This document shows positions 4,237-54,873 of a stretch of DNA of 55,071 bases, piece after piece (positions within the stretch are counted from its first letter, which is position 1; the number at the start of each line of letters is the position of its first letter). The DNA is from a virus. The DNA lies in IMG/VR virus record IMGVR_UViG_3300005613_003983, positions 1-55,071 of that record. One strand, 5' to 3'. The position numbers and the translations under genes were made by a program. The notes under the pieces are model-generated. The model ran no database searches and was not told the DNA's origin. It saw only the letters and a program-made list of their open reading frames with translations.

Positions 4237-5196
4237 ATGTCAAGTAAAAACTTAGATGTAAAATTTAAATCACAGTGGGATTCTGATGGAGGAATTTCAA
4301 AAGATGATTGTGGTCCAACTTGTTTAGCCATGATTCTTAATTATTATGGAGAAAAAGTTACCACTGATGAAGTTTTTAAAGCGACTGGAGCAGGAATTGA
4401 TAAATATGTGACCATTTCTCAATTAATAAAAGCGGGCAATAAGTGGGGATATAAAGGGCATTGGGAAATAAACTGCACAGAAAATAGATTAAAACAGTTA
4501 TTAAATAGAAGGTTGCCACCGATTGCTTTAATTCATTACGAACCCTTATCTTCAAGACAAGATAAGAATTTTGAGGGTGGACATTTTATTGTTATGGTTG
4601 GAGAAGATTGGGATGTGTGGATTGCTAATGATCCTGATTTTTGGGCACAATATAGAGAACATGGTAATCATCATAGATATTTGAAACCTGAATTTATTAA
4701 AGCGTGGGAAGAAGCTGTAAAAGATGGCAATTCTCCTAGAGGATTGCTTTGGTTTGAAAGAAAAACCCCAGCAGGTTCAAATTGTGAGGAAAAATTAAAA
4801 GAGGTAGAAAAAGAATTAAAAGAAAAAAATGAAGCATTAAAAAGGGTTAATAAAAGCCTTGCAACAACCAATAATGATAACACTGCATTAGGTTCAGAGA
4901 TAACAAAATTAGAAAATGATATAATAAAGGAGAAGCAAACATGTCAAAAAGAAAAGAACGATTTATCAAAAGAATTCAACCTAAAAGTCTCCACAGCGGA
5001 AAAGGCACTGAAAGAGGCGGAGAAAATTTGTGTAGAGGAAAAAAAGAAATTAGTAGAAACAAGTAAGTTAGAGCTACAGAAACAGGTTACTGATTTAGGA
5101 ACAGCGTTAGCAATAGCTACTGAAAATCTTGAAAAAATAGAAAGTTCACTTGCTTACAAGATTTTAAAATTAATTACTAATTTCAAAGGGAGGTGA
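4237..5196 (+). CDS. C39-like cysteine peptidase with C-terminal coiled coil, probable lysis or entry enzyme
   Basis: 319 aa. Residues 1-175 form a papain-like C39-type peptidase: catalytic Cys in DDCGPTCLAMILNYYG, His in EGGHFIVMVG, and an acidic/Asn partner in VWIANDPDFW. Residues 180-300 are a long heptad-rich coiled coil, followed by a hydrophobic segment (SLAYKILKLITNF). In phages such peptidases cleave peptide cross-bridges or process proteins. The position beside holin-like genes suggests lysis. The N-terminus may have been regenerated after the HNH insertion just upstream (see stub at 3703). Confidence 0.65.
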   Translation: MSSKNLDVKFKSQWDSDGGISKDDCGPTCLAMILNYYGEKVTTDEVFKATGAGIDKYVTISQLIKAGNKWGYKGHWEINCTENRLKQLLNRRLPPIALIHYEPLSSRQDKNFEGGHFIVMVGEDWDVWIANDPDFWAQYREHGNHHRYLKPEFIKAWEEAVKDGNSPRGLLWFERKTPAGSNCEEKLKEVEKELKEKNEALKRVNKSLATTNNDNTALGSEITKLENDIIKEKQTCQKEKNDLSKEFNLKVSTAEKALKEAEKICVEEKKKLVETSKLELQKQVTDLGTALAIATENLEKIESSLAYKILKLITNFKGR

Positions 5197-23541: not shown

Positions 23542-23766
23542 ATGAAAGTAAAAGTAGAAGAAAAATTATTAAAGATAATAAGCTCATTTGTTGGACAAGA
23601 GCTTAAATATGGAGAACTGAAAGATATTAAGGTTAATAATAGAAGTGTTTTAGTTTTAGAACTAACCTTTTCAGATGAGGGGTTTTTTAGAACTATGGTT
23701 TTAGCATTAGATAAGAATTTAACAGTTTCTTTATATTCTCCGATAGCAGAAGAATTAATAAAATGA
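23542..23766 (+). CDS. Small protein encoded before rtcB
   Basis: 74 aa from the ATG after the pseudoknot. An in-frame ATG at 23485 would lie inside stem 1 and add 19 unlikely residues. MKVKVEEKLLKIISSFVGQE..., ends [14 protein letters not shown] overlap with rtcB indicates translational coupling. Unknown function. Confidence 0.55.
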   Translation: MKVKVEEKLLKIISSFVGQELKYGELKDIKVNNRSVLVLELTFSDEGFFRTMVLALDKNLTVSLYSPIAEELIK

Positions 23767-25010
23767 AAGTAACTAGTTCAGAAAAACTACCAGTCAAATT
23801 GTGGATGGAAAACTTTACTGATATGGAATCAGGGGCTTGGAATCAAGTTAAAAACCTTGCTAATTTTCCATTTGCTTTCAGACATATAGCTATAATGCCT
23901 GATGCTCATCAAGGTTATGGTATGCCTATTGGTGGAGTTATGGCTACTAAAAATGTAATTGTTCCAAATGCTGTTGGTGTTGATATTGGTTGTGGAATGT
24001 GTGTGGTTAAAACTTCTTTAAAAAAGATTGATGTTGATATTCTTAAAAAGATTATGGGAGAAATTAGAAAAGTAATTCCGCTTGGATTTAATAAACACAA
24101 AGAAAAACAAGATGAAAAGTTAATGCCTCAGGGTGTGGGGCAGTTGGCTAGCTCGCCCGAGTTGGATTCGGGAGGTCGTAGGTTCGAGTCCTACCACCCT
24201 GACCAACAATTTTCGATTATTAAACAAGAATATGAAAATGCTTTAATGTCCCTTGGTACTCTTGGTGGTGGCAATCACTTCATTGAAATTCAAAAAGGTT
24301 CAGATGGTTATATTTGGATTATGATTCATTCAGGAAGCAGAAATTTAGGTTTTAAAGTGGCTAATCATTATAATAAACTAGCGGTTGAACTAAATGAAAA
24401 GTGGGGTTCAGCTGTTCCTAAATCTTGGGAGTTAGCTTTTTTACCAGTAGATAGTAAAGAAGGTCAAGCATATATCAAAGAAATGCGATATTGTATTGAT
24501 TTTGCTTTAGCCAATAGAAAGCTCATGATGGATAGGATTTGTAAAATTGTTGAATCTGCATGTATACCAGATTATCCAGAATCAGCAAACATTGTTTTCG
24601 ACAAAATGATTAATATTGCCCACAACTATGCAGCACTGGAAAACCACTTTGGTCAAAATGTATGGGTTCATAGAAAAGGAGCAACTAAAGCTACAAAAGG
24701 ATTAACAGGTATTATTCCAGGCTCTCAAGGAACTAATAGTTATATTGTAGAAGGATTGGGAAATAGAGAATCTTTTATGTCTTGTTCTCATGGTGCGGGT
24801 AGAAAAATGGGAAGAAAACAAGCTAGAGAAAATTTAGATTTAAAAGAGGAGTTAAAAAAGATGGAAGGTATTGTTCATGGAATTAGAAGTGTTAAAGATT
24901 TAGATGAAGCTCCTGGAAGTTATAAAGAAATAGACAAAGTAATGAGTAATCAATCTGACCTTGTAAAAATATTAGTAGAGCTTACTCCTCTAGCAAATAT
25001 GAAAGGATAA
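23763..25010 (+). CDS. rtcB: RtcB-type RNA ligase with an embedded in-frame tRNA gene
   Basis: 415 aa. RtcB joins RNA 3'-phosphate or 2',3'-cyclic phosphate ends to 5'-OH ends using GTP and Mn2+, repairing cleaved tRNAs and other RNAs. Seen motifs: GVDIGCGMC (metal Asp/Cys), [23 protein letters not shown], and [11 protein letters not shown] (histidine that takes the guanylate). All the key residues are present. Residues 123-148 ([16 protein letters not shown]...) are the translation of a complete tRNA-Pro gene inserted in a variable loop. The C-terminal tail ([16 protein letters not shown]) is duplicated at the end of the homing endonuclease downstream. Confidence 0.9.
24129..24205 (+). tRNA. 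tRNA-Pro(TGG) inside rtcB, CCA encoded
   Basis: Complete cloverleaf by eye. Acceptor CAGGGTG/CACCCTG (24129-24135/24195-24201). D-stem GGGC/GCTC. Anticodon stem CCCGA/TCGGG with loop GTTGGAT (anticodon TGG, 24163-24165). T-arm GTAGG-TTCGAGT-CCTAC, discriminator A, then CCA (24203-24205). C1-G72 and A73 fit tRNA-Pro. A37 instead of the usual G37 and a G32/T38 pair are unusual. It begins exactly on an rtcB codon boundary and is far more GC-rich than its surroundings. Confidence 0.93.
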
Positions 25011-25014
25011 TATT

Positions 25015-25383
25015 ATGGAACTTAAAGAACTTATTGGAAAAACATTGACAAAAATTGAAAATAAGGACAATGAAGAACTTATTTTTGAATGTAATGATGG
25101 AACTAAATATAAAATGTTTCACTATCAAGATTGTTGTGAATCAGTAACAATAGAAGATATTTGTGGCAATTTAGATGATTTGATTGGAAATCCGATTCTT
25201 AGAGCAACTGAAGACACTAATTCAAAATCCAATTCAGAAGGAATAAAAAAAGAATATCAAGACTCTTTTACTTGGACTTTTTATAATATTTCAACAGTCA
25301 AAGGAACTGTAACTATTAGATGGTATGGTGAATCTAATGGTTATTACTCTGAATCAGTTGATTTTGAAAAAATAAAAGAATGA
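25015..25383 (+). CDS. DUF7448-like protein
   Basis: 122 aa. [34 protein letters not shown] and [16 protein letters not shown] match a small phage protein family (DUF7448-like) of unknown function. It lies between rtcB and the homing endonuclease, overlapping the latter, and may be cargo of the inserted element or a pre-existing gene. Confidence 0.55.
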
Positions 25384-25892
25384 AAATAACATTACAATAT
25401 ATTGCTGGATTTTTTGATGGCGAAGGATGTATAGGAATTTATTCTAAAGCATATAGAAAAGGAACATTTCATCTAAGTACACAATTAACTCAAAATAAAA
25501 CTAAAGAGAGTAAATTATTAATGAATTTTTTAGCAAAAAAGTTTGGTGGTAATATATCAGAACAAATTACACTATCTAAAGATATTAAATATAATTGGCA
25601 ACTTGGATCTGATAATGCAGTTAACTTTCTTGAGGCGATATTGCCATATTTAATTCTTAAAAAAAGTCAAGCTATAATCGCTATAAATTGGCAAAAAGAT
25701 AGGCCAAAAAGAATAAGAGATAAAAAAGGAAGATTTTATGTTAAAAGAAAAAGAAACATAGAATTTGATAAAAAAGTTTCTAAATTAGTTAAGTTGTTAA
25801 AAAAGAAAGATATTGATTGGGTAATGGAACAACAAAAAGATTTAGTTAAAATTTTGGTTGAATTAACACCATTGGCAGTTATAAAAGCATAA
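25380..25892 (+). CDS. LAGLIDADG homing endonuclease fused to an rtcB C-terminal tail
   Basis: 170 aa. [14 protein letters not shown] is a LAGLIDADG motif; the following [20 protein letters not shown] and KKSQAI fit the single-motif homing endonuclease fold. The last 23 residues, [20 protein letters not shown] plus IKA, do not belong to that family. They duplicate the end of RtcB ([20 protein letters not shown] plus MKG) while the codons differ at most synonymous sites. The endonuclease tail is nearer to the general RtcB C-terminus than the tail now on rtcB. Confidence 0.85.
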
Positions 25893-31134: not shown

Positions 31135-31389
31135 ATGAATAAAAAGGAAAATTTTGAAACTTCTCAAATTCATGTTGTTGTTTGGCTTCAAATGAATGGT
31201 TTTCCTATAAAAGAAATAATTTGGTCTAGTGATGATAGAGCTGTTTTTGTTTTTAAAAATTTCAAAGGTAGAGAAAAATTAATTCAAGATTTTTTTAAGG
31301 AAGAAAAATTACAAAAATATATTTCTGTTTCACAAGAAACAAGAGCTAGGATGTATGCTTGTAAACCATCTAATAGACGTAGAATATGA
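31135..31389 (+). CDS. DUF5659-like small protein
   Basis: 84 aa. An ATG at 31114 is directly after the -10 box, so 31135 is preferred. FETSQIHVVVWLQMNGF ... DRAVFVFKNFKGREKLIQDF fits the DUF5659 pattern of small phage proteins. It overlaps recA by ATGA. Confidence 0.55.
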   Translation: MNKKENFETSQIHVVVWLQMNGFPIKEIIWSSDDRAVFVFKNFKGREKLIQDFFKEEKLQKYISVSQETRARMYACKPSNRRRI

Positions 31390-33416
31390 GAGACAGCTTA
31401 GGAAAAGCAATTTTGAAAATAAATAAAAAGTTTGGAGAGAATACAATCGGAAGATTAGACAAAATGCCATCTATTCAAGCTGAACGAATTTCTTCTGGTT
31501 CTCCTTATCTCGATTGGTGTACTGGTGGTGGTTTTCCTTTAGGTAAAACTATTGAACTTTATGGTCCTTATTCCTCTGGTAAATCTTTAATTGCTCTTAA
31601 AACAATTGCCGAAGCTCAAAAGAAGGGTTTAAAATGTGTTTATCTTGATTCTGAAAATGCTTTTGATCCTAACTTTGCTAGTAAAATAGGAGTTAATATT
31701 AATGAGTTAATAATTTCACAGGTTTCGGCAGGAGAAGAAGTTTTTGATATTGTTGATATGCTTCTTGATTCTAGTGTTTCTATTATTGTTATTGATAGTG
31801 TTGCCTCTCTTGTTCCTAAATATGAAATGGAAGAATCTGTAGAAAAACAAACAATGGCTTTACAAGCTAGATTAATGAGTAAAGCACTTAGAAAGATAAC
31901 GGGAAAGGCATCTAAAAATAATACTTTAATATTTTTTATTAATCAAATAAGAGAAAAGATAGGTTGCTTTCAATACAATACAAGAGTTGTTTTAGAAAGT
32001 GGGGAAACAGAAAAAATAGGATATTTGGTTAATAATAAAACTAAATGTAATGTGCTTTCTTATAATACTGAAAAAAACATTATCGAACCTACATCAATTA
32101 CTAATTGGTTCATAAACGGTAATGCTTATTATTTTCTCCACTTTAGATTTAAAAAACCACAAGGTAGAGGTAGGGGTGAGTTTGGTTGTACTCCCGACCA
32201 TAAGATAATGATTAAACCAGGTATCTATAAAAAAGCAAAAGATATAAAGGTTGGCGATAAAATATTAACTATAATAAATGATTGGATACCAAGTAATCTT
32301 CAAAAAGAAATCATAATTGGTGGATTATTGGGTGATGGTTGCTTAAGAAATGTTGGTGATGCTAAATATCAATATAGAGAAACTCATTGTAAAGAACAAG
32401 ATGATTATATTCGTTGGAAATCTGGTTATTTTGATACTAAAACAATGGGAAGACATAAATATGGTGGATTATATTTTGAGACTTTTTTAAGCACGACATT
32501 TGAAGAACAATATATTAAATTCTATTCAGGTGGTAAAAAAATTAAAATACCAAAAGATATTAAATTAACTCCTTTAATTTTAGCTATTTGGTATCAAGAT
32601 GATGGATATTTGGCAAACAAAGATAAAAAAGCTATTGTTTTAGCTACTAATTGTTTTAGAAAACAATCAATAGAAAATTTACGAGAAGCATTAAGAAAAC
32701 AGTTCAATATAGAAACGGGCATTAAAAGTAGAAAACATGGTTCAGAAATAGAATTGACTTTGGGGAACAAAGATACTTTAAAATTCTTTGAAATATGCGG
32801 GAATTTTATTCATCCTTCAATGTATTATAAATTACCAAATTATGGGAAAGAAAAAAATCTAACTTTATTTATTCCTTCGTTACCAGAAAAAGAATTTGAA
32901 GTTAAAAAACAAATTCTTAAATATAGTTATGTTACTCATAAATATAGTAAGCCAAAAACAAGAAGCATGGTTAAGTTCGACATAGAAACAAAAAATCATA
33001 ATTATTTAGCTGATGGAGCTATTGTTCATAATTCATATGGAAATCCTGAAATAACAAGTGGTGGTAGGGCTTTAGGATTTTATGCTTCTTTAAGGATTGT
33101 TGTCCGTAAAGGTGAATTACTTAAAGAGGATAAAATAGTAACAGGACAAGTAGTTAAATTTAAAGTAACCAAATCAAAAATATGTCAACCTTTTAGAGAT
33201 GGTTATTTTATTTTTTATCATCCAAATCCTGCTCATCCTGATTTAGAATTGTTTGATACGTCTGATGAATTAGTATCAATGTTGCTTATCCAAGAAAAGA
33301 TTAAGAGGAGAGGAGCTTATTATGATGTGTTAGAACAAACATTTCAAGGCAGAGAAGAATTAGAAAGAGAAATTAGAAGTAATAAAAAGTTTAGAAAGAA
33401 ATTAGAGAAATTATGA
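31386..33416 (+). CDS. recA: RecA recombinase containing an intein
   Basis: 676-aa precursor. N-extein: P-loop GPYSSGKS, YLDSENAFDP, VIDSVASLVPKYE, QARLMSKALRKI, FINQIREKIG. C-extein: SYGNPEITSGGRALGFYASL and a shortened C-terminal domain. Residues 194-549 are an intein, so the spliced protein is about 320 aa, near normal RecA length. It would catalyse strand exchange in phage recombination and repair together with the Rad52-like protein and SSB. Confidence 0.92.
   Translation: MRDSLGKAILKINKKFGENTIGRLDKMPSIQAERISSGSPYLDWCTGGGFPLGKTIELYGPYSSGKSLIALKTIAEAQKKGLKCVYLDSENAFDPNFASKIGVNINELIISQVSAGEEVFDIVDMLLDSSVSIIVIDSVASLVPKYEMEESVEKQTMALQARLMSKALRKITGKASKNNTLIFFINQIREKIGCFQYNTRVVLESGETEKIGYLVNNKTKCNVLSYNTEKNIIEPTSITNWFINGNAYYFLHFRFKKPQGRGRGEFGCTPDHKIMIKPGIYKKAKDIKVGDKILTIINDWIPSNLQKEIIIGGLLGDGCLRNVGDAKYQYRETHCKEQDDYIRWKSGYFDTKTMGRHKYGGLYFETFLSTTFEEQYIKFYSGGKKIKIPKDIKLTPLILAIWYQDDGYLANKDKKAIVLATNCFRKQSIENLREALRKQFNIETGIKSRKHGSEIELTLGNKDTLKFFEICGNFIHPSMYYKLPNYGKEKNLTLFIPSLPEKEFEVKKQILKYSYVTHKYSKPKTRSMVKFDIETKNHNYLADGAIVHNSYGNPEITSGGRALGFYASLRIVVRKGELLKEDKIVTGQVVKFKVTKSKICQPFRDGYFIFYHPNPAHPDLELFDTSDELVSMLLIQEKIKRRGAYYDVLEQTFQGREELEREIRSNKKFRKKLEKL
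31965..33032 (+). mobile_element. RecA intein with LAGLIDADG endonuclease
   Basis: 356 aa from CFQYNTRVVLESGE to DGAIVHN, followed by Ser. First residue Cys, last two His-Asn, +1 Ser: all splicing residues are present. GCTPDHKIMI is the block B His region. LAGLIDADG motifs are IIGGLLGDGCLR and LAIWYQDDGYL. Inserted at a classic RecA site between REKIG and the conserved (F/Y)GNPE. Confidence 0.92.
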
Positions 33417-35093: not shown

Positions 35094-35183
35094 ATGATAG
35101 ATAAAGCTAAATGCAAGTTTTGTCGTTGTAAAAAGATTTATAAAGATGGTAAATGTGTGAGTTGTGGGAAGAAAAATGAATAA
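35094..35183 (+). CDS. Mini zinc-ribbon peptide
   Basis: 29 aa with CKFCRC ... CVSCG (two CxxC pairs). No strong ribosome binding site. It overlaps the RNA ligase gene by eight bases. Low to moderate confidence. Confidence 0.4.
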   Translation: MIDKAKCKFCRCKKIYKDGKCVSCGKKNE

Positions 35184-36111
35184 AGTTCCAAGCTATCCAA
35201 AAATATTAGCTGTTGGCGCTGAACCAATACAGCAATTATTTGATGATGAGGTTGAAGTTACAGAGAAAATAGATGGTTCTATGTTTGCTTTTGGTGTTAC
35301 TGAAACAGATGGACATAAAGAATTAACAATAAGAAGTAAGGGGGTTCAGATATTCGTTGATAATATCCCCAAAATGTTTAAAAAGGCAGTTGATTATATT
35401 CTTACAATAGAAGATAAAATTTTAGAATTACCTCCAGAAACATATTTTTATACAGAATACCTTGCTAAACCAAAACATAATGTTTTAGCTTATGATCGAG
35501 TTCCTAAGAATAATTTAATCCTTTTTGGTGTCTGTGTAGAGAATGGGTGGGTTAAAGACTGGAAAAAGCTAAAAGGATTGGCAGATAAGCTGGAAATAGA
35601 AGTTGTTCCTTTGTTGGTTCAAAAGAAAATCAAGACAATAGAAGACTTAAAAGAGATTTTGGAAATGAAAAGCGTGTTGGGAAATGAAATAGTTGAAGGA
35701 ATAGTTGTTAAAAATTATAAACAATTATGGATGCTTGGTAATAGAGTTTATCCTCAATTTGGTAAGTATGTTAGAGAGGTTTTTAAAGAAAGGCATTTGA
35801 ATGAATGGAGCAAAGGTCATAAACCAAAAGATATTTTAAGAGAATATATTGAAGGATTTAGAACAGAAGCAAGATGGTTAAAAGGAATACAGCATTTAAA
35901 GGAAAAAGGTGAATTAGAATTTCAACCAAGAGATATTGGTAAATTAATGAAAGAAATACATTTAGACATAGTTGCTGAAGAAAAAGAAAATATTAAAAAA
36001 GAACTTTATAAAATGTTTATTAAACGGATTAAAAGAAAAGCTACTGCAGGTTTTGCTGAATTTTATAAAACTTGGTTAGCAGAAAGAGTTTTAGAGAAAG
36101 GAGGTAAATGA
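35176..36111 (+). CDS. RNA ligase, nucleotidyltransferase type
   Basis: 311 aa from the ATG MNKVPSYPKI; a GTG at 35164 would overlap the zinc-ribbon gene. EKIDGSMFAF is the adenylated-lysine motif (KxDGS). Further motifs are TIRSKG, TYFYTEYLAKPKHNVLAYDR, EIVEGIVVKNYK (motif IV, EG-x-V) and WMLGNRVYPQFGKYV (motif V region). This matches T4 Rnl2-like or related phage ligases that reseal nicked RNA. Roughly 90 extra C-terminal residues are helical. One of three RNA ligases in the window. Confidence 0.75.
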   Translation: MNKVPSYPKILAVGAEPIQQLFDDEVEVTEKIDGSMFAFGVTETDGHKELTIRSKGVQIFVDNIPKMFKKAVDYILTIEDKILELPPETYFYTEYLAKPKHNVLAYDRVPKNNLILFGVCVENGWVKDWKKLKGLADKLEIEVVPLLVQKKIKTIEDLKEILEMKSVLGNEIVEGIVVKNYKQLWMLGNRVYPQFGKYVREVFKERHLNEWSKGHKPKDILREYIEGFRTEARWLKGIQHLKEKGELEFQPRDIGKLMKEIHLDIVAEEKENIKKELYKMFIKRIKRKATAGFAEFYKTWLAERVLEKGGK

Positions 36112-36808: not shown

Positions 36809-36848
36809 AGAAGATGGGTTCGATTTTCGCCCGATATCCAAGCAAAAT

Positions 36849-36921
36849 CAGAGATTAGCTTAGCTGGTAGAGCATATCGTTTGGGACGATAAGGTCATAG
36901 GTTCGATCCCTATATCTTTGA
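36849..36921 (+). tRNA. tRNA-Pro(TGG), free-standing
   Basis: Cloverleaf by eye. Acceptor CAGAGAT/ATCTTTG (36849-36855/36914-36920, one G-U), D-stem GCTT/GAGC. Anticodon stem TATCG/CGATA with loop TTTGGGA (anticodon TGG, 36882-36884, G37). T-arm ATAGG-TTCGATC-CCTAT, discriminator A at 36921. CCA is not encoded. C1-G72 and A73 fit tRNA-Pro. Same anticodon as the tRNA in rtcB but otherwise different. Confidence 0.92.
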
Positions 36922-36939
36922 TTAGTTAAAGGAAAAGTT

Positions 36940-37269
36940 ATGAGTAAAGCATGGAAAGATTTAGAAAAAACTACAGCTAAAATCCTCGGAGGTAAGCGAG
37001 TTATTCGCACATCTTATGGTGAAAAAAATGTAGATGTAAAAATTAAGGATTTTCCTCGTTTTAAAATTGATACCAAGCGTTATAAAAAATTCCGTGTTTT
37101 TTCCTTATATGAAGAAGTGAGAAAGAGATATTGTAAAAAACCTCATGATGAACCAATTCTTATTTTAAGACAACATAATAAAAAAACTAAATTAGCAGTT
37201 ATAGACTTATTATTACTTGGTGAGTTTTTAGATTTTATTAGACGGAAAGAAGGACAAGATGCATTTTGA
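36940..37269 (+). CDS. PD-(D/E)XK nuclease-like (resolvase-type) protein
   Basis: 109 aa. WKDLEKTTAKILGGKRVIRT, NVDVKIKDFPRFKIDTKRYK and EEVRKRYCKKPHDEPILILR fit small Holliday-junction-resolvase-type or related PD-(D/E)XK nucleases: E in the first helix, DV, then DxK. Behind AAAGGAAAAG; overlaps queD. Confidence 0.55.
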   Translation: MSKAWKDLEKTTAKILGGKRVIRTSYGEKNVDVKIKDFPRFKIDTKRYKKFRVFSLYEEVRKRYCKKPHDEPILILRQHNKKTKLAVIDLLLLGEFLDFIRRKEGQDAF

Positions 37270-37750
37270 AAAAGGTATTCTTACTCAATTTAAACAAGAT
37301 AAAAGAACAGAGACTTCAAAATACTTACTTGAGGTAGAAACTGGATTTGAAGCGGCTCATAGATTAAATGATTACCACGGTAATTGTAAAAGAATTCATG
37401 GACATTCTTATAAAGTTATAGTGGCTATACAATCAAAAGAATTAAATCATTGGGGAGCAGTAATAGATTTTAAAGATTTAAAAGAATTGATAAAAAAACA
37501 TATTGCAGGAAAATACGACCATAAATTAATTTTAAGAAATAAAGATAAATTAAACGACAAAATAGGTAAGGCGCTTCCTAAATCTTGGATTGTATGGATG
37601 AATAATAATCCTACTGCGGAAAATTTAGCCAAAGACATTTATAAAAACCTTTTACCAGTATTCAAAATTATTACAAAGGGAATTGAACTTGTTAGTGTTA
37701 ATGTTTTAGAAACATCGACAAGTTCAGCTACTTATTATGCTAAAAGTTAA
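37259..37750 (+). CDS. queD: 6-carboxy-tetrahydropterin synthase
   Basis: 163 aa. FEAAHRL and CKRIHGHSYKV (zinc histidines and catalytic Cys), YDHKLIL, PTAENLA and VLETSTSSATYY are the QueD/PTPS signature. It converts 7,8-dihydroneopterin triphosphate to CPH4, step two of preQ0 synthesis. About 25 extra N-terminal residues compared with the minimal enzyme. Overlaps queE by 14 bases, so one operon. Confidence 0.9.
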   Translation: MHFEKGILTQFKQDKRTETSKYLLEVETGFEAAHRLNDYHGNCKRIHGHSYKVIVAIQSKELNHWGAVIDFKDLKELIKKHIAGKYDHKLILRNKDKLNDKIGKALPKSWIVWMNNNPTAENLAKDIYKNLLPVFKIITKGIELVSVNVLETSTSSATYYAKS

Positions 37751-38393
37751 CGAAATATTTTATTCAATTCAGGGAGAAGGACAAAAAACAGGTTATCCTT
37801 GTGTTTTTCTTCGTCTTTTTGGTTGTAACATGAGGTGTAAATGGTGCGATACTAAATATGCCTTAGAACCTTCTAAAGATTTTAAGAAAATGAAGATTGA
37901 CCAAGTTATTAAAGAGATTAAAAAATATGGAGTTAAATATGTTTGTATTACAGGAGGAGAACCACTTTTACAAGAGAAAGAGGTCGAGACATTAATTATA
38001 TCAATGCCTGGTTTTACGTTTGAAATTAACACAAATGGCAGTTTACCGATTAATGTACCATTTTGGATTAAAAAGGATAGAGTTCGTTATGTTGTTGATT
38101 ATAAATTACCATCATCGGGAATGTGGGGAAGGTTTTTATGGAAGAATGTAGAATTTCTAGACGAAAAAGATGATATTGTGATGGTAATTAAAAATAGGGA
38201 AGATTATAAAATAGCGAGAGAAACGTCTAAAGCAATAAAAGAAATAAGTAGTGCAAATATAATTTTTTCTCCTTGTTGGGGAGATATGTCTAAACAAAAA
38301 TTAGTAAAATGGATTTTAGAGGATAAATTAAATGCAAGACTGGGTTTACAAATTCATAAAGTTATATATGGTCCTATTAGGAGGGGAGTATGA
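37737..38393 (+). CDS. queE: 7-carboxy-7-deazaguanine synthase (radical SAM)
   Basis: 218 aa. FYSIQGEGQKTGYPCVFLRL, the cluster motif CNMRCKWCDT, ITGGEPLLQ, FEINTNGS and VDYKLPSSGM are diagnostic for QueE. It makes CDG from CPH4 using SAM and a 4Fe-4S cluster. The stop overlaps the start of the interrupted ugd stub. Confidence 0.93.
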   Translation: MLKVNEIFYSIQGEGQKTGYPCVFLRLFGCNMRCKWCDTKYALEPSKDFKKMKIDQVIKEIKKYGVKYVCITGGEPLLQEKEVETLIISMPGFTFEINTNGSLPINVPFWIKKDRVRYVVDYKLPSSGMWGRFLWKNVEFLDEKDDIVMVIKNREDYKIARETSKAIKEISSANIIFSPCWGDMSKQKLVKWILEDKLNARLGLQIHKVIYGPIRRGV

Positions 38394-38437
38394 AAAAAAT
38401 AGGAGTAATTGGTCATCAATTATTATTACATTTTTAA
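38390..38437 (+). pseudogene. 5' stub of the nucleotide-sugar dehydrogenase gene cut off by HNH insertion
   Basis: A 15-codon frame starts MKKIGVIGHQ behind AGGAGGGGAGT, the best ribosome binding site in this region. MKKIGVIG is a typical Rossmann N-terminus and parallels MKKSTIAVIG of the dehydrogenase at 38839. The HNH gene starts right after it. Inferred remnant of the original 5' end. Confidence 0.45.
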
Positions 38438-38451
38438 TATATAATAAGGCT

Positions 38452-38793
38452 ATGAAATTTAATCCTTTATTTCCAAATAGAAAATATGGTGATGGAATAA
38501 TAATGTTAAAAGGATATGTTGCGGTGACAGCACCAAAAGGATATAAAGGAAAAACATATTTTGGAAAGAATTACAACAAAAATGCAAAAAGGCAGAGGGC
38601 ATATGTTTATCAACATAGATTGGTAATGGAGAAAAAGATAGGCAGATATTTAGAATCAGATGAACTTGTTCATCATAAAAATAAGATTAGACACGATAAT
38701 AGGGAAGAAAATCTTGAAATAGTGGTTGGTAAAGGGAGACATTCAGGAAAAATACGTTGCCCTTATTGTTTGAAGGAATTTAGAACATTATAA
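38452..38793 (+). CDS. Free-standing HNH homing endonuclease
   Basis: 113 aa from the ATG behind AATAAGG; a longer frame upstream overlaps queE. YVYQHRLVMEKKIGRYLESD, then ELVHHKNKIRHDNREENLEI is the HNH core, and CPYCLKEF is a C-terminal zinc knuckle. Sits between queE and the dehydrogenase gene. Confidence 0.85.
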   Translation: MKFNPLFPNRKYGDGIIMLKGYVAVTAPKGYKGKTYFGKNYNKNAKRQRAYVYQHRLVMEKKIGRYLESDELVHHKNKIRHDNREENLEIVVGKGRHSGKIRCPYCLKEFRTL

Positions 38794-38838
38794 TTTTTAT
38801 TATTAAATTTCAAGAAACTTTAAAAAATATCTTTTAAA

Positions 38839-39678
38839 ATGAAAAAGTCAACAATTGCAGTTATTGGCTGGACAGGAATAGTGGGTGCCACTACCTACCA
38901 ATGGTTTAAAAAACAAGGACATTCAGTAATGGGTTTAGCAAAGGATAGAAAAACTCACACTTGGGATCAGATAAACAAAGAAGCAGATTATATTTTTATA
39001 ACTGTTCCTACGCCTTATGATTGGGAAGAAAAAAGGGCTGATTTAACCGTGTTGCAGCAAGTTTTTAGAAGGATAGGTTATGCCAAAATAATAATTATTA
39101 AATCTACAATATTGCCTGGAACAACAGAAACATTACAAGAAAAATATCCTTCTTTATATTTATTACATAATCCTGAATTCTTGAGTGCTAAAACAGCTTG
39201 GGAGGATTTTATTAATCCAGACAGACAATTAGTAGGTTATACAAAAAGAAGTTATAAATATGCCGAAGAAGTATTGCATTTATTACCACAAAGTCCGTAC
39301 GATGTCATAATGAAAGCAACTGAAGCGGAAATTTGTAAATATATTAATAATTTTCATGGTGCTTTAATGGTTATGTTTTCTAACTTTTTTTATGATATTG
39401 CTTTAAAGTTTGGGAAAGGGACATTAGATTTTGAAAGAATTAAAAAAGCAGCTCAAGCCTCAAAGTGGGTGGGTTCTCCTATGGGTAGAATGTATTGGGA
39501 AGTCTTTCATAAAGGTAAAAGAGGTTATGGTGGTGGTTGTTTTCCTAAAGACATTAATAGTTTAATAGAATGGTGTAAAGAGAATAAAGTAGATAGTGAA
39601 ATAATTGAGGCTACAAGAAAAGCAAATCAAAGAATATTAAAAAAACAAGGATTAACAGAAAAGGAGGTAGAAAAATGA
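38839..39678 (+). CDS. Short UDP-glucose/GDP-mannose dehydrogenase-like protein
   Basis: 279 aa. N-terminal Rossmann part (IAVIGWTGIVGATTYQWF), ADYIFITVPTP, IIIKSTILPGTT, NPEFLSAKTAWEDFINPDRQ, EICKYINNF (Lys), and the catalytic-Cys motif GYGGGCFPKDINSL. These are diagnostic for nucleotide-sugar dehydrogenases. The usual 390-440-aa enzyme also has a C-terminal UDP-sugar-binding domain, which is absent. An altered substrate or oligomer is expected. Its place inside the que operon is curious. Confidence 0.8.
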   Translation: MKKSTIAVIGWTGIVGATTYQWFKKQGHSVMGLAKDRKTHTWDQINKEADYIFITVPTPYDWEEKRADLTVLQQVFRRIGYAKIIIIKSTILPGTTETLQEKYPSLYLLHNPEFLSAKTAWEDFINPDRQLVGYTKRSYKYAEEVLHLLPQSPYDVIMKATEAEICKYINNFHGALMVMFSNFFYDIALKFGKGTLDFERIKKAAQASKWVGSPMGRMYWEVFHKGKRGYGGGCFPKDINSLIEWCKENKVDSEIIEATRKANQRILKKQGLTEKEVEK

Positions 39679-40340
39679 ATAAAAAAACAGTAATCATGTT
39701 GTCTGGTGGTATTGACTCTACGACTTTAGCTTATTATTTAAAAGATAAAAAACATGATTTACATGCTTTGTCTTTTTATTATGGACAAAAACATCACAAA
39801 GAAATCTTAGTAGCAGAAGAGATGGCTAAGATATTACAAATTCCGTTTAAGTTAGTAGATATAAGAAATGTAGGAAAATTGCTTAAATCGTCTCTAACAA
39901 GTAAAAAAGAGAAAGTTCCAGAAGGACATTATGCAGAAAAAGTAATGAAATCTACAGTTGTTCCTAATAGAAATATGATTATGCTTTCTATTGCTGCTGG
40001 CTATGCCAAATCAATTAAAGCAACAACTGTTGCCTTTGCAGCACATGCAGGCGACCATTTTATTTATCCAGATTGTCGGCCTGATTTTGTAACAAATATG
40101 AGGCTTGCATTAGCTTCTTCTTTTGGATATGAAAAACCCTTTCCTGAGTTAATTGCTCCATTTATTGCTCTTGATAAAGTTGATATTGTTAGATTGGGAA
40201 CAATGTTAAAAGTTCCTTTTGGACTTACTTGGTCGTGTTATAAAGGATTAGAAAAGCATTGTGGTAAATGCGGTACTTGCGTTGAAAGAAAAGAAGCCTT
40301 TAAGTTAGCAGGGATTAAAGACTTAACAGAATATGAGTAA
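39675..40340 (+). CDS. queC: 7-cyano-7-deazaguanine synthase
   Basis: 221 aa. PP-loop ATPase motif LSGGIDSTTLAY, YYGQKHHKE, PNRNMIMLSIAAGYA, HAGDHFIYPDCRP, and the zinc site CYKGLEKHCGKCGTCVER identify QueC, which converts CDG to preQ0 with ATP and ammonia. Strong AAAGGAGG site; overlaps ugd and folE. Confidence 0.94.
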   Translation: MNKKTVIMLSGGIDSTTLAYYLKDKKHDLHALSFYYGQKHHKEILVAEEMAKILQIPFKLVDIRNVGKLLKSSLTSKKEKVPEGHYAEKVMKSTVVPNRNMIMLSIAAGYAKSIKATTVAFAAHAGDHFIYPDCRPDFVTNMRLALASSFGYEKPFPELIAPFIALDKVDIVRLGTMLKVPFGLTWSCYKGLEKHCGKCGTCVERKEAFKLAGIKDLTEYE

Positions 40341-40884
40341 ATTAGAAAAATTATTTAAAAGTGTTTTAGAAGAGTTGGGAGAAAATCCTAATAGACCTGG
40401 ATTGAAAGAAACCCCTAAAAGAATAGATAAGGCATTAAGATTTCTCTGTGGTGGATACAATAGAAATCCAAAGGATGTTATAAAAACCTTTCCTGCTAAG
40501 AATATTGACCAATTAGTTGTAATAAAGGCAATAGATTTTTATTCTAAATGCGAACATCACATGGAAACCTTTTATGGACAAGTTCATATTGGTTATTTGC
40601 CCAAAGATAGAGTAATGGGTGTTTCTAAGTTTGCTAGATTAGTAGAAATTTATTCTCGAAGATTACAGATTCAAGAAAGAATGACCCAGCAAATAGCTGA
40701 CGCCATTATGAAATATTTAAAACCTTTGGGGGTGGCGGTCGTCGTTAAAGGAATTCATCTGTGTATGAGAGCTAGAGGAATCCAAAAACAAAACACAGAG
40801 GTAATTACTTCTGCTATGTTGGGAAAGTTTAGAGAAGAAGATGAATCAGCATTAAGAAATGAATTTTTAAATTTGATTAAATAA
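40333..40884 (+). CDS. folE: GTP cyclohydrolase I
   Basis: 183 aa. GLKETPKRIDKAL, CEHHMETFYGQVHIGYLP, GVSKFARLVEIYSRRLQIQE, and GIHLCMRARGIQKQNTEVIT are diagnostic. It produces dihydroneopterin triphosphate, the first intermediate of the preQ0 pathway, so the phage does not depend on host folate flux for that step. Confidence 0.95.
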   Translation: MSKLEKLFKSVLEELGENPNRPGLKETPKRIDKALRFLCGGYNRNPKDVIKTFPAKNIDQLVVIKAIDFYSKCEHHMETFYGQVHIGYLPKDRVMGVSKFARLVEIYSRRLQIQERMTQQIADAIMKYLKPLGVAVVVKGIHLCMRARGIQKQNTEVITSAMLGKFREEDESALRNEFLNLIK

Positions 40885-44047: not shown

Positions 44048-44696
44048 TACAGAAAAAATATTACCATCTCCTCAAAGTGTAACTGCTGTTGCCCAGAATA
44101 TAAATCCAGACAATGTTAATAAAATAGCCCTACGCAGGGGAAAAGTAAGAGAATTAGTAAGAATGGGTTATGAGCCTTACCAAATACCATTAATTCTTGA
44201 AAAAGGAATTAAGGTAGGAAAAAATAAAATTATTACTGTTCCGATTTCTGAAACAATTGTAAAAAATGATGTTGAATATATAAGACAAGAAGATGCTTCG
44301 ATAGATATTGATTTTAGTGAGAAGAGAGCAGAAATTTTAGACAAATTAAGATTCTTATATAATAGAGCAATAACTGAATATATGAATGCTAAGGGACAAG
44401 CAAGAAATAGTTTTATGAATACGGCCTTATCGGTTTTAAGTAAAATAACAGAAATAGAAGGAGTTAAAGCTCCTGAAAGTTTAGATATTAATTTAGGAGA
44501 AGAAGCAAAAATATCAAAATATGCTATCGAGCTTCATAAATTAAGCGAAAATGACAAATCTAATATTCTCACCGCAATTCGAGAAGTTCATAAAAAACGC
44601 CAACTGGAAAGAGATGGAAATTCTGGAGTTTCTAGCGGAAAACCCAGAATACCAGTACAAACCAGTGGGGATGAGAGAGTTCCTAGAAAGTCCTAA
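44028..44696 (+). CDS. Putative small terminase subunit
   Basis: 222 aa. A helical protein with a helix-turn-helix-like N-terminal part (RRGKVRELVRMGYEPYQIPL) and a central helical oligomerisation region. Position directly before the large subunit suggests TerS. Its last 49 codons overlap the terL start by 146 bases; the tail is low in complexity (SSGKPRIPVQTSGDERVPRK). Confidence 0.55.
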   Translation: MAKEPLDTEKILPSPQSVTAVAQNINPDNVNKIALRRGKVRELVRMGYEPYQIPLILEKGIKVGKNKIITVPISETIVKNDVEYIRQEDASIDIDFSEKRAEILDKLRFLYNRAITEYMNAKGQARNSFMNTALSVLSKITEIEGVKAPESLDINLGEEAKISKYAIELHKLSENDKSNILTAIREVHKKRQLERDGNSGVSSGKPRIPVQTSGDERVPRKS

Positions 44697-47600
44697 TTTT
44701 GTTACCAAGCAAGACTCGGCACGACCTTATAATAAAGAACTTCTAATAGAAATATTTGATAGTGGTAAAAATCTTGAGTTTTTTGAAAACTTAGGAAAAT
44801 ATGAGGAAGTTCTTTATATAGCTGGCATTGGTTCTGGTAAATCCTATGTTTCTTCAATGGCAATAACCTATATTATTTATAGGTTGCTTTGTTTAAGAAA
44901 TCCTCAAAAATACTTTCATTTTGCTAAAGGAACTAAAATTGCCTTTGTCAATATTTCTAAGTCTTTTACTCAAGCCAAAGATGTTGTTTTTGGTGAGATT
45001 AAAAATAGAATAGATAATAATCAATGGTTTCAAAACTTTTATCCTCCTGACCCAAGAATTAAGTCTAAAATAAGATTACCTAAAAATATTTTTATTCTTC
45101 CGTTGGGCTCAAATGAAGAATCTCCTTTGGGTTATAACATTTTTGGAGCAGTTATTGATGAAGCTTCATTTCATACTTCAACTAAAGATAAAGATTATGC
45201 TGAAGAAAGCTATAATCAAATTAAAAAGCGTATTCGTTCTCGATTTTTTTCTAAAGGAAAAACATTTATTATAACTTCACCAAGATATGTTTATGATTTT
45301 GCTGAGAAAAAATGGGAAGAAGAAGCAGATAATCCTAAAGTTTTTAAAAGAAGAACTCCTTTATGGGAAGCAATACCAGAGGAAATGTTTTGTGGACAGA
45401 AATTTGATTTAGGAAAATATGTTTCAAAATATAAGGGAAAAGGAGTAATGATACCAATAGAATACGAAGATGAATTTATAAAAAATCCTGAAAAGGCAAT
45501 GAGGGATTATGGTGCTCAACCATCAATGTCAATTCAGGGATTTTTTAATGACCCTGACATTATTACTTCATATGCTAATTATAAAAGAAAACATCCAATT
45601 AGTCCTAAAACAGGAGATTTTTATGAATGGTTTTATAATCTGAAAAGCAGTGAAAGTTTTGATACTGATAAACGCTTTATACATATTGATTTAGGATTAA
45701 ATAAAGAGGGAAAAGGAGATTGTGCTGGTTTTGCTATGGGAAAGTTTAATGGTTGGATAGAGCAAAGAAGTAGTTTGGGCAAAATGGAAAAGAAGCCAAA
45801 AATATTCATTGACTTTATGTTACAGATAAAGGCAAGACCAAAAGACGAGATTCAATTTGAGGAAGTTAGAAAACTTGTTTATAAACTTAGAGATATTGGT
45901 TATAATATTCATAAGATAACCTTTGATGGTTGGCAATCGACATTAGGTTCAACAAAGATAAAATTGCTTGATGGAACAAATAAAAGAATAGACGAAATAG
46001 ATAAAAAAACATGGATTTATTCCTATGACTTAAAAAGAAAAGAGATAGTTCCTGCATTATGTCATCCCGCTATTAAAACAGGTGTTAATAAAAAGGTTTA
46101 TGAGATTATTCTTGACAATGGCGAGAAACTGTATTTTACCCCTGAACATTTATTTTTAATGAGGGATGGTTCATATAAAGAAGTACAAGAGTTAAAGCCA
46201 TGCAATAGCATAATGCCTTTATATACAGATTATTTAATAAGAAAAAATAAAACAGATACAAAACCAAGACGTTATGAAAAAATATTACAACCAGAAACAA
46301 ATAATTGGGAGATGACTCATGATATGGTTGCTAGAAATATTTATGGGAAGAAATCTAAGAATAACGTAGTCCATCACAGAAATTTTAATTCAGAGGATAA
46401 TAGACCATTAAATCTTGAATATCAGCACTATAAAAATCATCTTAAAATGCATAAGATGCTAACTCAAAAAGCGAATGAAATTAGATGGTCAAAAAAAGGC
46501 ATGAGGGAAAAACAAGCCCAGTTAATGCGAGAAAGAAATAAGAAATTCAATCTACCCTCTTTACTAAAATCACCTACTAAAGAAATTGCTAAAAAAATAG
46601 CTTTGATAATTCAAGATAAGTGGGATAATGATAAAGAATATAAGATTAAAATGTTAAAAAGGCCTGTTTATTATGGTAAAAATTCGCCTCATTATAATCG
46701 ACAAGTAGAAAATGAATTGTTATTAAAAATATGTTCAAGTAGTAATACTTTAAAAGAAGTTAGACAAAGATTAGAGTTAAAAAACAATCTTTTTATTATT
46801 AGAAGGTTAAAATCATTGGGTTATAAAGGATTCAGAGATTATAAATCACAAAAAAATCATAAAGTAGTTTCGGTTAAATTTTATAAATATGAAGATGTTT
46901 ATGATATAGAAGTTCCTAAATATCATAATTTTGCTTTATCGGCAGGTATTTTTGTTCATAATTCAGTTGATTCTGTTCAAACATTAAAATCAGCAGGATT
47001 TAATGCGGACTTTCTTTCGGTAGATAGAAAAGCAGAAGCATATTATACATTGAAGGGGGCTTTACTTGATAAGAGATTAGATTTTTATTTTTATAAACCG
47101 TTTATTATAGAACTTCAACAATTAGAAGAAATAAAAGGAATGAAGATTGACCATCCAAGAGGAGGAAGTAAAGATGTTTGTTTAGCAGGTAATACAAAAA
47201 TATCTTTATTAAATGGTAAGGAAGTCCCAATTAAAAAACTTGTTGGAAAATCAAAGTTTGAAGTTTATTCAGTTTTACCAAATGGACAAATTAAGATTGG
47301 AAAAATTGAGAATGTAGTTTGTACTGGGTTAAGAAAAGATATTTATCGTATTTGGTTAGATAATAATAAGCATATAGATTGTACTTCTAATCATCCTTTT
47401 TTATTAAGAAATGGAAGATATAAAAGAGCTGATAAATTAAAAATAAACGATAAACTAATGCCTCTATATAGAAAATTATCAATTACTAATAGCAAAACTG
47501 CTCTTAATGGCTATGAAATGATAAGACAAAATAATTCTGGTAAGTGGGTTTTTACGCATCAATTAGTAGCAAAGGATATTTTTGAGTTTACTTATAAGAA

Positions 47601-48342
47601 TATGAAAAAGACAAGAAAGGTAATTCATCATAAGGATTTTGATAAAAGAAATAATGCCTCTGGGAATTTAGAAATAATGAGTTGGGATAATCATAGAGAA
47701 TTACATAATAAAGTTGGGAAAACAAATTTTAAAATGTTATGGAAAAAGCCAGAATTTAGAGAAATTTGTAAGAAAAATTCAAGTAGAATAGGTAAAATAA
47801 CTGGTCCAAGAAATATAACTAAATATAATAAATCTAAAGAGCGTATAGAAAAATTAAAAAGAATGAATTTATTTTCTCGGAATGGGACTAAAGTAATGAA
47901 TAAACTTTGGCAAGACTTAGAATTTAGAAAGAGACATAAAGAAAGGTTAATAGGAAGTAATAATCCATTTGCTAGAAAAGACATAACGTTGGCTAAAATA
48001 ATTTTTGTTGCTAAGAATGGTTTCTCGCAAAAGGAAATACTTGAAAAATTGCATTGTACACAAAAAGTATTACACAGAATATTAAGAGAAAATGAAATAT
48101 CAAAACATGAATTTGGGCAAAAATATTATAAAAGCAAGTATTATAACCAGAAATATTTTAACCATAAAATCATTAAGATTGAAAAAATAAAACCAACAAA
48201 AGTTTTTGATATGAAAGTTAAAAAATATCATAATTTTGCCTTATCAGCTGGAGTTTTTGTTCATAATAGTGATGCGGTCGCTGGAGTTTGTTTTCATGCG
48301 GCGCAAGGTACGCCGGGCAGAGGATTTAAGATAATTGGATAA
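44551..48342 (+). CDS. terL: Terminase large subunit containing two inteins
   Basis: 1263-aa precursor; 558 aa after removal of both inteins. ATPase: Walker A AGIGSGKSYVS, Walker B GAVIDEASFH, coupling motif TFIITSPRY. Nuclease: FIHIDLGLNKEGKGDCAGFA and, across the second intein, KDV + SDAVAGV. The first intein interrupts FDGWQ + SVDSVQ, a conserved site of large terminases. The enzyme packages DNA into the prohead. The N-terminus is read from the ATG at 44551, inside the upstream gene. Confidence 0.92.
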   Translation: MTNLIFSPQFEKFIKNANWKEMEILEFLAENPEYQYKPVGMREFLESPNFVTKQDSARPYNKELLIEIFDSGKNLEFFENLGKYEEVLYIAGIGSGKSYVSSMAITYIIYRLLCLRNPQKYFHFAKGTKIAFVNISKSFTQAKDVVFGEIKNRIDNNQWFQNFYPPDPRIKSKIRLPKNIFILPLGSNEESPLGYNIFGAVIDEASFHTSTKDKDYAEESYNQIKKRIRSRFFSKGKTFIITSPRYVYDFAEKKWEEEADNPKVFKRRTPLWEAIPEEMFCGQKFDLGKYVSKYKGKGVMIPIEYEDEFIKNPEKAMRDYGAQPSMSIQGFFNDPDIITSYANYKRKHPISPKTGDFYEWFYNLKSSESFDTDKRFIHIDLGLNKEGKGDCAGFAMGKFNGWIEQRSSLGKMEKKPKIFIDFMLQIKARPKDEIQFEEVRKLVYKLRDIGYNIHKITFDGWQSTLGSTKIKLLDGTNKRIDEIDKKTWIYSYDLKRKEIVPALCHPAIKTGVNKKVYEIILDNGEKLYFTPEHLFLMRDGSYKEVQELKPCNSIMPLYTDYLIRKNKTDTKPRRYEKILQPETNNWEMTHDMVARNIYGKKSKNNVVHHRNFNSEDNRPLNLEYQHYKNHLKMHKMLTQKANEIRWSKKGMREKQAQLMRERNKKFNLPSLLKSPTKEIAKKIALIIQDKWDNDKEYKIKMLKRPVYYGKNSPHYNRQVENELLLKICSSSNTLKEVRQRLELKNNLFIIRRLKSLGYKGFRDYKSQKNHKVVSVKFYKYEDVYDIEVPKYHNFALSAGIFVHNSVDSVQTLKSAGFNADFLSVDRKAEAYYTLKGALLDKRLDFYFYKPFIIELQQLEEIKGMKIDHPRGGSKDVCLAGNTKISLLNGKEVPIKKLVGKSKFEVYSVLPNGQIKIGKIENVVCTGLRKDIYRIWLDNNKHIDCTSNHPFLLRNGRYKRADKLKINDKLMPLYRKLSITNSKTALNGYEMIRQNNSGKWVFTHQLVAKDIFEFTYKNMKKTRKVIHHKDFDKRNNASGNLEIMSWDNHRELHNKVGKTNFKMLWKKPEFREICKKNSSRIGKITGPRNITKYNKSKERIEKLKRMNLFSRNGTKVMNKLWQDLEFRKRHKERLIGSNNPFARKDITLAKIIFVAKNGFSQKEILEKLHCTQKVLHRILRENEISKHEFGQKYYKSKYYNQKYFNHKIIKIEKIKPTKVFDMKVKKYHNFALSAGVFVHNSDAVAGVCFHAAQGTPGRGFKIIG
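45937..46962 (+). mobile_element. TerL intein 1 with HNH endonuclease
   Basis: 342 aa from STLGSTKIKLLDGTN to SAGIFVHN, followed by Ser. The first residue is Ser rather than Cys. Block B lies around LYFTPEHLFLM. The HNH core VVHHRNFNSEDNRPLNLEY and HLKMH lies in the middle. His-Asn end and +1 Ser are intact. Confidence 0.9.
47179..48267 (+). mobile_element. TerL intein 2 with HNH endonuclease
   Basis: 363 aa from CLAGNTKISLLNGKEVP to SAGVFVHN, followed by Ser. Block B DCTSNHPFLLRNG. HNH core VIHHKDFDKRNNASGNLEIM and NHRELH. It ends in KYHNFALSAGVFVHN, almost the same as intein 1, indicating a close relationship. It interrupts the RNase-H-like nuclease motif. Confidence 0.9.
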
Positions 48343-54234: not shown

Positions 54235-54873
54235 ATGAAGAAATATCATAAAATTCAATCAGTTTATTTAAGAGACCCCGAAAATAAGTTTAGGACATTT
54301 TTAGATGGTCAATGGTCAAGGCCTGAACTTGGTTATTTAAAAGATAATGTTTGGGTTTGGACTGAAAAAATTGACGGAACAAACATTAGAATCATGTGGG
54401 ATGGTAAAAATATTATCTTTGGTGGCAAAACAGACAATGCTCAAATTCCCGCTTTTCTAGTCAATAGGCTTAACAAACTCTTTGAAGGAACTGCTAATAG
54501 AAAAAAAATGAAAGATATTTTTGGCGAGGAAGGCGAAGTTTGTCTTTATGGTGAAGGCTATGGAGCTAAAATTCAAAAAGGTGGTGGCAATTATATTCCT
54601 AATGGCCAGAACTTTATTTTATTTGATGTCAATATTGGAGGTATTTGGCTTGAAAGGAATAATGTAGAAGATATTGCTAATAAGTTTGAAATTAAAACTG
54701 TTCCTATTATTGGTAAGGGGGCACTAAAAGAAGCAATAGAATTAGTCAAAAAAGGCTTTGATTCAAAAGAGGGAAAGTTGATAGCAGAGGGATTAGTAAT
54801 ACGACCAGAAGTAGAATTGAAAGATAGACGAGGATATAGAATTATTACTAAAGTTAAACATAGAGATTTTTAA
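54235..54873 (+). CDS. RNA ligase, T4 Rnl2-like
   Basis: 212 aa. WTEKIDGTNIRIMWDGKNII (motif I, adenylated Lys, with the following Arg), FGGKTDNAQIP (motif Ia region), EVCLYGEGYGAKIQKGGG (motif III), IAEGLVIRPEVELKDRRG (motif IV) and IITKVKHRDF (motif V, KxK-like). All the core ligase motifs are present and the length matches a catalytic domain alone. It follows the HIT genes. Confidence 0.82.
   Translation: MKKYHKIQSVYLRDPENKFRTFLDGQWSRPELGYLKDNVWVWTEKIDGTNIRIMWDGKNIIFGGKTDNAQIPAFLVNRLNKLFEGTANRKKMKDIFGEEGEVCLYGEGYGAKIQKGGGNYIPNGQNFILFDVNIGGIWLERNNVEDIANKFEIKTVPIIGKGALKEAIELVKKGFDSKEGKLIAEGLVIRPEVELKDRRGYRIITKVKHRDF

Follow-up and report, generated by a model that had tools for sequence, protein, structure and literature searches.

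How can one run of bases be both a complete tRNA gene and part of the coding sequence of an enzyme that joins RNA ends, and why would a phage keep such an arrangement? The question is raised by rtcB, the gene for the RNA-splicing ligase RtcB, in the phage record IMGVR_UViG_3300005613_003983, whose whole analysed stretch of 55,071 nucleotides is called the window here. A tRNA-Pro(UGG) gene lies in frame within this gene (Table 1). To our knowledge, a tRNA and a protein drawn from the same bases of the same strand are very rare. The explanation that we favour, with moderate confidence, is a dual-coding gene that belongs to a recurrent tRNA-Pro and rtcB module, most likely a counter-defence against RNases that cut tRNA-Pro.

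Table 1. Features of the window discussed in the text, with positions in the whole stretch
Feature	Position	Strand	Evidence
rtcB, RNA-splicing ligase RtcB, 415 aa, intact, ORF hosting the tRNA	23763..25010	+	PF01139; alignment; AlphaFold
tRNA-Pro(UGG) with encoded CCA, equal to RtcB residues 123-148 in frame	24129..24205	+	ARAGORN, Rfam; 21/21 stem pairs kept in three nested copies
RtcB residues 127-147, predicted disordered loop encoded by the tRNA	24141..24203	+	sole segment with pLDDT <50
Anticodon TGG followed by A37 (tRNA-Pro usually G37)	24163..24166	+	
DUF7448 protein adjoining rtcB	25015..25383	+	
LAGLIDADG endonuclease ORF ending in a second RtcB C-terminus copy (about 25809-25892)	25380..25892	+	
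RNA ligase, PF09414 family	35164..36111	+	profile match
Second tRNA-Pro(UGG), free-standing, G37, without CCA, AT-rich phage-like composition	36848..36922	+	ARAGORN, Rfam
Second RNA ligase, PF09414 family	54235..54873	+	profile match

The nested tRNA and its host gene

A preliminary description, made from the letters of the window alone, had proposed a genuine and complete tRNA-Pro that begins at rtcB codon 123 and is translated as an insert. Both points are borne out. ARAGORN calls a tRNA-Pro(tgg) at exactly this position, and the Rfam tRNA model (RF00005) scores it at 57.3 bits, with an E value of 8e-10 for a search of the complete window, against a gathering cut-off of 29. The first base of codon 123 is the start of the tRNA, which lies wholly within the rtcB reading frame. 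The isotype is predicted to be proline from the UGG anticodon, the C1-G72 pair and A73. Position 37 is A in the nested copy of the window, where the usual base of tRNA-Pro is G37 (as m1G37), a base that the isotype call does not require.

A chance tRNA-like sequence was considered and is ruled out by recoding and shuffling. When the peptide encoded by the tRNA was recoded with random synonymous codons, an ARAGORN tRNA was left in 3 of 1000 trials. With phage codon usage, recoding of this and the two other loop peptides described below kept a tRNA that could be detected in 2-6 of 1000 trials, and with uniform codon choice in up to 35 of 1000 (L035 loop). None of 2000 codon-shuffled rtcB genes contained an ARAGORN tRNA. 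Signals for a promoter or terminator within the gene did not rise above those of shuffled sequences.

The host gene has the features of a normal RtcB. Its product matches PF01139 with 380.5 bits over residues 28-415 and, by sequence comparison, solved archaeal and bacterial RtcB. D74, C77, N171, H172, H189, H287, H343 and K414 (window numbering) are invariant in 25 aligned RtcB sequences and align with the P. horikoshii enzyme; the metal-binding and guanylylation residues are thereby conserved, and the catalytic motifs are retained, as had been proposed. The earlier placement of the insert in a variable loop agrees with the spread in length that relatives show in variable loop 1 (36-59 residues) and variable loop 2 (20-52 residues), and with the disordered loop in the AlphaFold model, which has a mean pLDDT of 90.6 and drops below 50 only within the insert. 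According to this model, the insert would be a flexible loop on an RtcB that is normal in all other respects.

An in-frame insertion of intein size is also found after GVDIG in the rtcB gene of a related contig (L018, 3900-6041; frame of 717 residues), and rtcB thus appears to be a repeated target of inserted elements. Inteins such as this intein-like one resemble the nested tRNA in being inserted in frame in a gene. They differ in that they splice themselves from the protein, whereas the stretch encoded by the tRNA remains as a loop.

Recurrence, selection on the fold and linkage to rtcB

Nesting of a tRNA-Pro(UGG) in rtcB recurs in two more IMG/VR phages, namely L035 (IMGVR_UViG_3300004154_000029) and L089 (IMGVR_UViG_3300029959_000029). 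In L035 the tRNA (63.7 bits) starts at codon 120 of the matched frame and occupies the same loop as in the window, after a conserved MP. In L089 it scores 66.3 bits and occupies another variable loop, flanked by MMDNIQNIF and a stretch of 14 residues. Both reading frames are open across the tRNA, the 5' end of the L089 gene being truncated by the contig end. The three nested tRNAs all begin with the first base of a codon, reading Q-G-V, and are the only ones among 86 locus tRNAs to lie inside a long reading frame with known homologues. A chimeric assembly, named beforehand as what could undo the case, is ruled out by the like arrangement in these two contigs, which come from other samples.

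Conservation of the insert extends to the same loop of L035, but the closest viral rtcB loci, L024 and L002 (73% identical), have no tRNA at the site used in the window. The frameshift predicted for removal of the tRNA applies to the 77-nt copy of the window, where TAA would follow after five codons; it is not general, since the ARAGORN units in L035 and L089 measure 75 nt. Pattern scans of IMG/VR, which looked for any T-arm suitably spaced ahead of either conserved motif, gave no more nested tRNAs, and searches of cultured phages with peptides bridging the tRNA reached only Microbacterium and Mycobacterium rtcB genes without a tRNA. Exact patterns retrieved no exact host donor of the window tRNA from IMG/VR or GTDB; the best similarity in a phage collection was about 80% identity across most of the query, and in plasmids about 76%. 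At 2144-2226 of L089, 1.1 kb downstream of the nested rtcB, lies a weakly tRNA-like sequence (35.8 bits) whose anticodon region holds a long insert; it could be an intron-bearing or decayed tRNA.

The three nested tRNAs have only 45-53 of 74 bases in common (61-72% alike). In a comparison of these three sequences, part of whose divergence possibly predates nesting, all 63 pair cells (21 pairs in each) hold standard pairs, and 11 of the 21 pairs have changed on both sides. With the partner strand slid, 41-52% of positions paired and 1-2 pairs had changed on both sides. Since every pair is kept at this level of likeness, with so many changed on both sides, the cloverleaf itself is under selection; coding constraint alone would not be expected to give such pairing. 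The pairing data demonstrate retention of the fold, not the duration of nesting. In a wider set of 13 rtcB-linked tRNAs, 99.6% of pairs are formed and 16 pairs show double changes. Two observations weigh against dual coding. Complete CCA is encoded only in the window copy, GACAC following the acceptor stem in L035 and L089, and the predicted minimum-energy folds of the unmodified window and L035 transcripts are a long hairpin, not a cloverleaf.

Nesting is accompanied by a wider linkage. A tRNA-Pro(UGG) lies inside rtcB or within 200 nt of it, on the same strand, in 16 of about 112 related phage contigs, 13 of these tRNAs being beside the gene. Among the 86 tRNAs of 97 distinct contigs, proline accounts for 16 of 27 near rtcB by this definition vs 5 of 59 farther away (Fisher p 1.2e-6, to be taken as a guide because tRNAs within one cluster are not independent). 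A second RtcB scan, centred elsewhere, gave no linked tRNA-Pro in 15 new contigs, and the linkage is a minority state. The linked tRNA-Pro lie 4, 9, 45, 47, 100, 107 and 167 nt downstream, 9, 31, 40, 88 and 131 nt upstream, or inside rtcB. In seven records, which may be fragments, the linked tRNA-Pro is the sole tRNA found. Another tight junction is seen in L041 (4155-4230), where the final four bases of rtcB also belong to a tRNA-Met.

On the RtcB tree the 16 linked tips require 14 parsimony changes, with a mean of 15 for shuffled labels. So many changes for scattered tips mean that the linkage came about repeatedly, by gains alone or by gains and losses. The three nested tips themselves stand apart in the tree (INDEPENDENCE): L035 is sister to L037 (support 0.99), the window groups with L024 (0.93) and L089 with L011 and L080 (0.94), none of these neighbours being nested. 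Parsimony counts three changes for nesting. The window and L035 do share a clade of weak support (0.27) and an insertion site, and a single gain followed by losses, or a transferred segment, could account for both. The nesting in L089 occupies a different loop and is separate. Within the favoured explanation, and with the same moderate standing, nesting would be the extreme form of the wider linkage. It plausibly arose, again as part of that whole, when a linked tRNA entered a loop tolerant of length changes.

The linked tRNAs also agree in base 37. A37 (loop UGGA) is present in all 16, and G37 in three of the five distant tRNA-Pro, one of them the second tRNA-Pro of the window. Among the tRNA-Pro(UGG) of cultured phages that were inspected, three have G37 and that of Roseobacter phage DSS3P8 has A37; in Xanthomonas phage XacN1, A37 and G37 occur in one copy apiece. 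G37 is the methylation target of TrmD, and the E. coli prolyl-tRNA synthetase (ProRS) prefers the methylated tRNA (PMC8643618). Given this use of G37, A37 would set the tRNA apart from the usual host form, the comparison here being with the usual tRNA-Pro rather than with that of an identified host. Position 37 is read by modification enzymes, by the synthetase and possibly by nucleases.

Proposed function of the linked tRNA and ligase

In the mechanism that we propose, one DNA stretch would provide both a tRNA-Pro(UGG) with A37 and a surface loop of a predicted working RtcB. Host RNases would cut tRNA-Pro. RtcB joins 2',3'-cyclic-phosphate or 3'-phosphate ends to 5'-OH ends, as left by metal-independent RNases, and could reseal tRNAs broken with 2',3'-cyclic-phosphate and 5'-OH ends. 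The phage tRNA-Pro with its altered base 37 would meanwhile replace depleted host tRNA, and A37 may make it a poorer target of the nuclease or free it from the need for m1G37 methylation. Any one transcript would be turned either into tRNA, by RNase P and 3' processing, or into RtcB, by ribosomes reading across the tRNA before it is processed. From established RNA biology, cleavage by RNase P should preclude RtcB synthesis from the same molecule, so that one transcript would yield one product, as the preliminary description had also supposed; the tRNA may in addition be a substrate of the enzyme itself. Nesting would also make the two functions inseparable by recombination. A more speculative extension, which we consider doubtful, is that the single transcript embodies a choice between a tRNA and its own repair ligase, with the balance set by translation, and that this choice evolved two or three times at two rtcB sites.

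Several known systems are precedents for parts of this proposal. Repair of cleaved tRNAs has been proposed for phage RtcB and Rnl ligases (PMC7824862). Phage tRNAs with changes in the anticodon loop have been proposed to evade anticodon nucleases (PMC10264068), and phage tRNA-Tyr against retron-Eco7 and tRNA-Lys against PrrC rescued infection (PMC11555353). An altered-loop tRNA-Pro tied to RtcB fits a combined repair and replacement answer to an attack on tRNA-Pro. We know of no nuclease attacking tRNA-Pro in hosts of these phages. Against a role in counter-defence stands the rarity of the linkage in both searches; further, A37 could instead serve independence from TrmD or simple codon supply.

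The main rival holds that the tRNA is an ordinary codon-supply gene, a single tRNA-Pro being frequent in AT-rich phages of this kind, which lies near rtcB because RNA genes cluster, and that the nested copies are neutral insertions tolerated by variable loops. The length variation of both loops agrees with this, and 9 or 10 of the 16 linked tRNA-Pro have no stop codon in frame 1, so that survival of an insertion is not improbable. On its own, however, it leaves unexplained the proline isotype, the proximity to rtcB in many unrelated branches and A37 in every linked copy, and we regard it as possible but rather unlikely. Control in cis is improbable. Ribosomes translating rtcB would keep the tRNA unfolded, and faltering translation would let it fold and be cut by RNase P, which would end RtcB synthesis and free tRNA-Pro. 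The tRNAs that abut rtcB by 4-9 nt in L006, L098, L060 and L057 would suit such coupling, as would the Pro codon that the window and L035 have immediately 5' of the tRNA; L089 lacks this codon, though, and in the adjacent cases the reading frame is uninterrupted.

It is very unlikely that the tRNA was inserted once and now persists only as a translated peptide loop. The window copy does score lowest of the three, but all stems are paired, with compensatory changes between copies, and the T-loop, C1-G72 and A73 are invariant in the tRNAs compared. Least probable is intron-like excision with RtcB rejoining the mRNA halves: joining RNA is what RtcB does, and excision of the tRNA is conceivable, but exact removal of 77 nt shifts the frame in the window, the ends left by RNase P are not substrates for RtcB, and an Rfam search found no ribozyme or other element in or beside the insert.

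The favoured explanation, repair together with replacement, is best placed beside systems already described. Phage tRNAs thought to evade nucleases (PMC10264068, PMC11555353) likewise carry a changed anticodon-loop base and are proposed to replace depleted host tRNA. They differ in lying in tRNA arrays with no tie to rtcB, and a term search of the main text of both papers found no proline tRNA. The tRNA-rich phages with RtcB, Rnl1 or Rnl2 (PMC7824862; Lacusarx, PMC5648845) similarly have RtcB beside tRNA genes and a proposed role in tRNA repair; the portions of these sources drawn on here describe no tRNA inside a ligase gene and no isotype preference. Phage tRNAs linked to theta ribozymes (PMC10879173) share unusual tRNA processing and, in the part of that source used, an enrichment of RNA ligase in the same genomes; the ribozyme is absent at the window, and nesting in a protein gene does not appear in that part.

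Phage tRNAs, phage RtcB and the two together are thus already known, and we know of the nested organisation from nowhere else. As the preliminary description had supposed, no precedent for an in-frame tRNA nested in a ligase gene, recurrent and with fixed isotype and base 37, was found in the literature searched, which lay mostly outside subscription journals. The recurrence of tRNA-Pro, A37 and rtcB together points to a putative, specific host attack on tRNA-Pro and would give phage RtcB a probable substrate. The nested locus could further serve as a compact natural system for the choice between RNA processing and translation.

Neighbourhood of the locus

The gene adjoining rtcB encodes a DUF7448 protein, and a look-alike of it, recognised by eye, also flanks the rtcB of L035. 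Beyond it lies a LAGLIDADG reading frame whose end repeats the RtcB C-terminus in diverged form, with 55 of 87 bases alike. L044 (about 4260-4805) likewise has a LAGLIDADG reading frame with a C-terminus copy (58 of 87 bases alike) just downstream of rtcB. We know of no phage rtcB with a mobile reading frame that replaces its C-terminus. The arrangement in the window and L044 matches mobile-ORF elements of fungal mitochondria, which insert near the 3' end of genes such as atp6 and bring a replacement C-terminus (PMC3630166).

Two RNA ligases of the PF09414 family are encoded elsewhere in the window. Directly downstream of rtcB in L035 (4320-5309), a reading frame resembles, by eye, an RNA ligase of the DRB0094 type, which would place another ligase next to a nested rtcB. 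The window phage also looks rich in inteins, given homing-endonuclease or intein-like matches in its RecA/UvsX-like, terminase-like and portal-like proteins (31386-33416, 44551-48342 and 48388-50994). Finally, reading frames at 37259-40884 resemble, by eye, QueD, QueE, QueC and FolE, and may form a putative preQ0/7-deazaguanine pathway.
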